DNA from: Pseudomonadota bacterium
GTDB lineage: Bacteria; Chloroflexota; UBA6077; JAJPGT01
DNA length: 64,000 nucleotides
Direction: 5' to 3'
Assembly (NCBI GenBank): GCA_021325655.1
Contig: JAJPGT010000020.1
Span: forward strand, 62,001 to 126,000
Each line of letters starts with the position of its first letter. Position 1 is the stretch's first letter. The translations under genes were made by a program, and so were the position numbers. Shown piece after piece: positions 5,190 through 6,179 of the stretch. The notes beneath the pieces are model-generated. The model was not told the DNA's origin. It worked only from the letters and a program-made list of their open reading frames with translations, and did not search any database.

Positions 5190-6179
5190 ATGCCCGATAT
5201 CCCCCTCCGGCAGATCCAGCCAAACAGATTCAACCCGCACCTGCGGTTCTCGAAGGCCGGCCTTGACGAGCTTGCCGCCAGTATTCGCCAGTTCGGGATT
5301 GTCGAGCCGATCGTCGTCCGGCCCGAGAATGGCCACTACCAGGTCGTCGTCGGCGAGCGCCGCTATCGGGCCGCCCAGCAGGCAGGCCTCGAGGCCGTGC
5401 CTGTGATCATCCGCTCGTTCACCGACGAGGAAGTGATAGAGATCAGCCTCGTGGAGAACGTCCAGCGGGAAGACCTGTCGGCGGTCGAGAAGGCGAAGCT
5501 CTGCCGGGAGCTCCGCCGGCGCTATCCAGAGCGCTACCCTAGTTGGGAGAGCATCGCTCGCCGCGTCGGGGTAGAGCCCGAGACTGTGCGCGCCTGGATG
5601 CGCACGCTGGATCTGCCCGTAGAGGTGCAGGAAAAGATCGCCCCGCGCGAGCAGCAGCGGCGCGTACCGGAGGGCAAGATCGACTACCAGACCGCGCTTC
5701 GCGTGGCCGAGAAGATCAAGGACCCGCAGCGGCAGATCCAGGTGGTGCAGCGGCTGGTCGAGAAGCGGGTCCCGCATCGCGTGGCGAACGAGATCATCCG
5801 CCGCGCCGCGCTGGAGCCCGGTGGCGATGTCGCCTGCGAAGCAAGCCAGGTCCCGCAGCAGTCGGGCCCGTCACTGTCCTTCAGCCACCGTAACTATCGC
5901 GCGATTCTGGACGGCACCAAGACGCAGACCACCCGCCGGCGGCTCGATCCCGCCATCGCCCCGGGCCGCACCGTCACCGCTGCGCTGTCGCGCTTCGCCG
6001 AGCTGCGGGTCGAGGAGGTCGTCCCGCGCAAGCTCGGGGAGATTACCGAGGAAGACGCCCAACGGGAGGGCGCGTCAACACTACGGGAGTTTCGCGAGCA
6101 GTGGTGCCGCCAGTACGGTTCGTGGAACCCGGAGGAGACCGTGTACCTGCTCCGCTTCAGGCTCAGCCGGGTCCTGTAG
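5190..6179 (+). CDS. ParB/Spo0J-like protein fused to a C-terminal ASCH domain
   Basis: This 329-residue protein has two recognisable parts. Residues 1-95 are a ParB N-terminal nuclease/CTPase-type domain (IPLRQIQPNRFNPH, VVGERRYRAAQQ at 54-65, ISLVENVQREDLSAVEKA at 85-102). Residues 100-210 are the helical DNA-binding part with a helix-turn-helix around 118-140. After a short linker, residues 228-329 form an ASCH (PUA-like) domain: LSFSHRNYRAILDGTKTQTT with the GxKxxTxR signature, then LGEITEEDAQREG and WNPEETVYLLRF. ParB domains bind CTP and specific DNA; ASCH domains are thought to bind RNA or nucleotides. No parA partner or parS-like site is seen nearby, so chromosome partition is unlikely. 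AAGGAG at 5176 supports the start. Confidence 0.85.
   Translation: MPDIPLRQIQPNRFNPHLRFSKAGLDELAASIRQFGIVEPIVVRPENGHYQVVVGERRYRAAQQAGLEAVPVIIRSFTDEEVIEISLVENVQREDLSAVEKAKLCRELRRRYPERYPSWESIARRVGVEPETVRAWMRTLDLPVEVQEKIAPREQQRRVPEGKIDYQTALRVAEKIKDPQRQIQVVQRLVEKRVPHRVANEIIRRAALEPGGDVACEASQVPQQSGPSLSFSHRNYRAILDGTKTQTTRRRLDPAIAPGRTVTAALSRFAELRVEEVVPRKLGEITEEDAQREGASTLREFREQWCRQYGSWNPEETVYLLRFRLSRVL

Follow-up and report, generated by a model that had tools for sequence, protein, structure and literature searches.

An orphan ParB-family protein with a C-terminal ASCH domain in Chloroflexota and Bathyarchaeia

In canonical ParB proteins, NTP binding dimerizes the N-domains and holds the protein on DNA. 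Domains of the ASCH fold typically serve as readers of RNA or of modified bases. CTP-type switches beyond chromosome segregation constitute a new and open field of study. Fusions of the ParB-CTPase fold to ASCH were reported in 2025 as enriched in archaea (Kaljevic et al., PMC12704722). The same survey describes prophage ParB-CTPase-DUF3850 fusions, one of which bound CTP, as well as some ParB folds whose nucleotide is ATP or GTP rather than CTP.

Within the window (the whole stretch of DNA analyzed here, 64 kb), a gene on the forward strand encodes PF02195 and PF04266 in one protein, by definition a ParB-CTPase-fold/ASCH fusion. This ParB-ASCH protein shares its ParB N-domain and ASCH domain (PF04266) with the fusions of Kaljevic et al.; because such fusions are listed there, the novelty of the fusion type is less than the initial annotation implied. 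That text presents pairwise domain fusions and does not describe a ParB_N-HTH-ASCH family of Bathyarchaeia and Chloroflexota or its residue signatures. ParB-ASCH is thus of a known kind, while the family and its signatures appear undescribed. The prophage ParB-CTPase-DUF3850 proteins likewise join a ParB fold to a PUA-like domain, but they are phage-borne with an adjoining parA, whereas ParB-ASCH lies on a chromosomal contig without parA. Added here are the Bathyarchaeia/Chloroflexota family, its single origin, and its residue pattern. As an archaeal and bacterial protein, ParB-ASCH offers a clean test case for such switches: the predicted nucleotide site is intact, the hydrolysis residue is changed, the helix that would read DNA looks reprogrammed, and ASCH, a putative base-reading domain, replaces the dimerization domain. 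We assign its architecture and orphan status with high confidence: it is an orphan ParB-family paralogue rather than the chromosome-segregation ParB. The NTP identity, DNA binding, ASCH ligand, and function discussed below are what we infer.

Domain architecture and the nucleotide-binding core

The fusion gene (5190..6179, forward strand, as are its parts listed below) is an ORF of 329 amino acids with an ATG start, no internal stop, and AAGGAG closely upstream of the ATG. The initial annotation placed the gene correctly, and the motifs it named (GERRYR, NVQREDL, GTKTQTTRR, and VYLLRF) are present in the ORF; the ParB core, helix-turn-helix (HTH), and ASCH domain that it read in one frame all score above their Pfam cut-offs. 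ParB_N, the predicted NTP-binding domain (residues 3-92; 5196..5465), was assigned from Pfam PF02195 (8e-31; 106 bits versus a cut-off of 26.3), conservation, and alignment to solved ParBs. It carries G55-E-R-R-Y-R and E89-N-V-Q-R-E, with N15 at the usual position of the catalytic Gln. The predicted DNA-binding domain, HTH_ParB (residues 94-205; 5469..5804), was assigned from PF17762 (2.3e-6; 28.1 bits versus 22.6) and alignment to Caulobacter ParB (6t1f). A lower-confidence linker follows (residues 206-228; 5805..5873), with AlphaFold pLDDT values of 71 for residues 211-220 and 64 for residues 221-230. The HMM search on which the initial annotation had staked its claim recovered ASCH at residues 229-325 (5874..6164; PF04266, 3.7e-7; 31.2 bits versus 21.2), an assignment shared by VIA-align and by profile alignment to YqfB. 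The general ASCH motif GxKxxxxR (PMC5615036) is present as G242-x-K244-x4-R249. ASCH occupies the place of the ParB_C dimerization domain (PF23552), which was absent from the window protein in a Pfam search at E up to 1; as a control, ParB_C was detected in three canonical Chloroflexota ParBs, and it is present in the canonical ParB of the same genome.

Structural comparison gave the same picture. A phmmer search against solved structures matched the core of the fusion protein to ParB/Spo0J/Noc. The AlphaFold2 model, built with an 11-sequence alignment, has a mean pLDDT of 85 and a pTM of 0.58, values at which the single domains are confident and their mutual orientation is not. Using VIA-align, Caulobacter ParB (6t1f) superimposed on model residues 1-206 (Z 19.0, rmsd 2.7, 184 residues), and E. 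coli YqfB (9kyf) superimposed on residues 224-326 (Z 12.9, rmsd 2.1, 97 residues), ranking above other ASCH structures. Relative to canonical ParB/Noc, ParB-ASCH is alike in its N-domain and HTH fold and in its GERR and ENxxR motifs, but lacks ParB_C, the parS contacts, and parA, and has an Asn at the hydrolysis Gln and an ASCH tail.

Across 32 aligned family members, G55, E56, R57, R58, E89, N90, and R93 are invariant, such that both nucleotide motifs (GERR and ENxxR) are retained throughout. All 32 members have Asn at position 15, which aligns opposite the Gln of "NPDQPR" in Caulobacter ParB. By residue counting, this Gln is the residue altered in the Myxococcus ParB variant Q52A, which is without CTPase activity (PMC12462528). 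The invariant Q-to-N replacement at a hydrolysis residue argues for altered hydrolysis in ParB-ASCH, as judged from the alignment. Given that Gln occupies the equivalent position in those canonical Chloroflexota ParBs that were compared and that orphan ParBs on IMG/VR contigs (L025-L037) mostly have Asn, the Asn is an orphan-ParB trait and not unique to this family. The initial annotation had suggested that the protein may be a CTP switch with a nucleic-acid or nucleotide sensor; the invariant nucleotide motifs and the PUA-like C-terminus uphold that reading in part, with the CTP role standing as a prediction. In several of the IMG/VR orphan ParBs, the Glu of GERR is replaced by His, Ala, or Asn.

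DNA-reading helix, genome context, and distribution

In Caulobacter ParB, parS is contacted by Q162, K171, S172, R173, and N178 (PMC7383237). The corresponding residues of the window protein are W119, V128, E129, P130, and A135, which leaves the recognition helix without the canonical contacts to parS; only Caulobacter G170 is kept. If these contacts carry the same weight here as in ParB, their loss means that the DNA site of ParB-ASCH must differ from parS. Sequence-specific DNA binding is itself not certain, owing to the modest Pfam match of the HTH and a recognition helix that differs between Chloroflexota and Bathyarchaeia. As the initial annotation had observed, no parS is visible nearby: the 64-kb window contains no parS-like 16-mer within 3 mismatches. 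The window's assembly has no exact TGTTNCACGTGNAACA but also encodes a canonical parA-parB pair (L109, G000 contig C26), so the genome's own parS may differ, being either divergent or missing from the assembly. Palindromes upstream of the fusion genes (16-mers with at least 7/8 pairs) numbered 8 compared with 4.8 in shuffles, and none was common to the upstream regions; an autoregulatory palindrome was accordingly rejected.

The reported absence of parA holds across the family: the 32 loci, about 395 kb in total, contain no ParA-like ORF at E up to 0.01. On another contig, the window's genome has a separate pair in which parA precedes the gene for a canonical ParB. For two Bathyarchaeia genomes, the fusion was the only ParB_N protein detected and may therefore show a ParB-fold role in archaea without ParABS. 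No conserved neighbor gene was common to the Chloroflexota and Bathyarchaeia loci, and a conserved operon partner was rejected because neighbors differ between the phyla and between Bathyarchaeia subclades, the latter featuring HD and radical-SAM genes upstream, a convergent topoisomerase IB, or HSP20 and arginyl-tRNA synthetase. The topoisomerase IB, found in one subclade (L085:6881-8383, L083:4730-6232), is of eukaryote type and overlaps the fusion gene by 4 bases. In four Bathyarchaeia loci, about 3-6 kb separate the start of the fusion gene from a CTP synthase gene (L042:12967-14628), a proximity that is probably lineage synteny. In one Chloroflexota relative, a phosphoribosyltransferase gene (L004:928-1443) reads in the same direction 54 bases after the fusion gene and may form an operon with it, an arrangement not seen in the others. 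Further orphan Bathyarchaeal ParBs (L111:528-1712, L112:209-1993, L118:1195-1977) have as their C-terminal domains DUF488, a DNA methyltransferase of N6/N4 type, and a ribbon-helix-helix (RHH_1) domain.

Full-length ParB-ASCH occurs in 5 of 29 genomes of the window's class, including the window's own, and the relatives in the other four are 60-63% identical to the window protein. A draw of 400 genomes from the window's phylum returned the same five carriers only. A scan of GTDB species genomes matched three of those Chloroflexi MAGs and seven Bathyarchaeota MAGs, and a profile search retrieved full-length copies from 31 of 256 Bathyarchaeia genomes, one copy each; among 300 genomes drawn from the phylum of Bathyarchaeia, matches were confined to already known carriers. 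The total is 36 genomes, the window's own included, from two domains of life. Pairwise identity between the window protein and Bathyarchaeal members is about 40-45% over the whole length.

ParB-ASCH is under purifying selection. For pairs with unsaturated dS, dN/dS (Nei-Gojobori) is about 0.01-0.13 in the N-domain plus HTH and reaches 0.27 in ASCH. A tree of 63 ParB cores places all ParB-ASCH proteins in a single clade (support 100/99) apart from canonical ParBs; inside this clade, Chloroflexota (100/99) and Bathyarchaeia (96/79) are sister groups. From these sequences, the topology indicates that the fusion arose once and that the gene crossed between domains of life at least once, with the sister relationship leaving the direction undecided. 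A phage or plasmid origin was rejected, as no record in the phage and plasmid collections covers 80% of the window protein; 13 IMG/VR relatives match the ParB core only.

The ASCH domain and competing readings

YqfB uses a Thr-Lys-Glu triad plus Arg26 (PMC6972931). By profile alignment, YqfB K21, T24, R26, and E74 correspond to K244, T247, R249, and E293 of the window protein, which shares the fold and has all four key catalytic residues. This quartet is complete in the window protein, yet in only 11 of the 32 members; the Thr is Ile in ten, and three of the four closest Chloroflexota relatives are among the 21 with an incomplete set. Two residues are invariant in 32/32, namely E293, aligned with YqfB Glu74, and D289, aligned with His70, such that the His position is Asp in every member. 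A264, G294, W305, W312, and F323 are also invariant, as is F231 with one X set aside. Unlike YqfB, which is free-standing, the domain here is fused, and the window protein scores 16.2 bits against a cut-off of 93 for the YqfB-type amidohydrolase model NF003443. The pocket is conserved but its nucleophile has decayed, a pattern suggesting that the shared function is binding rather than catalysis. ASCH in ParB-ASCH is therefore, on residue conservation, more likely a reader than an enzyme, although the window protein may itself have kept activity. The "sensor" of the initial annotation would, we infer, fit such a degraded YqfB active site.

With about even confidence, we read ParB-ASCH as a regulator-like protein whose DNA binding would be gated by an NTP and whose tail would read a base or a nucleotide. 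By analogy with ParB, the N-domain would bind an NTP (CTP being the default guess), the HTH would bind DNA at a site unlike parS, and NTP binding would close or stabilize the protein on DNA. The YqfB-like ASCH would recognize, and not cut, a base or nucleotide, be it in RNA, in modified DNA, or as a free nucleoside. The tail would supply specificity or a signal coupled to DNA occupancy, and the protein would probably act in gene regulation or nucleoid organization. Counting against this reading are the modest HTH match with its variable recognition helix, the lack of an upstream palindrome common to the genes, and the lack of a neighbor conserved in both phyla that would point to a pathway.

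Other readings weigh the same features differently. One possibility, which we regard as doubtful, is an NTP-regulated transcription factor whose ASCH domain is a ligand-free structural or dimerization stand-in for ParB_C: ASCH does sit at the usual ParB_C position, and other Bathyarchaeal orphan ParBs carry other C-termini (RHH_1, DUF488, methyltransferase), but the invariance of D289 and E293 in all 32 members goes beyond what a scaffold needs. We consider it unlikely that ASCH is a catalyst, either an N4-acetylcytidine-type amidohydrolase or a ribonuclease, placed on DNA by the ParB part. The intact quartet of the window protein and the standing of YqfB as its closest solved ASCH structure speak for such an enzyme, against which count the incomplete quartet in 21/32 members, the universal Asp at His70, and the NF003443 score. 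A more elaborate and improbable proposal is a two-input cytidine device, in which the ParB part, with its invariant Asn at the catalytic Gln, would bind CTP without normal hydrolysis and the YqfB-like ASCH would read or remove a modified cytidine, such as N4-acetylcytidine; if true, DNA clamping in archaea and bacteria alike would answer to CTP as well as to a cytidine mark.

An ordinary partition ParB or Noc acting at parS/NBS sites is very improbable. The best database names of the window protein are ParB/Noc and its core fold matches Caulobacter ParB at Z 19, but the Noc model TIGR04285 scores 140 bits against a cut-off of 315, the parS contacts and ParB_C are gone, no parA lies near any member, and a canonical parAB pair is encoded elsewhere in the genome. 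The probability that two genes were joined by chance or by assembly error, the latter a refuting condition named in the initial annotation, is negligible. Although the contamination of the source MAG is estimated at 7.8%, nothing was found in favor of an artefact; artefact and contamination were rejected on the full-length relatives that 35 other genomes, spanning two domains of life, encode, on purifying selection, and on codon-position GC, third position included, that is like that of neighboring genes. As for the ASCH tail, Bathyarchaeia also encode free-standing ASCH proteins of 107-156 amino acids (L119, L120, L121, L122), whose matches to the fused ASCH have E-values of about 1e-18 to 1e-20; they are a possible source of that domain.
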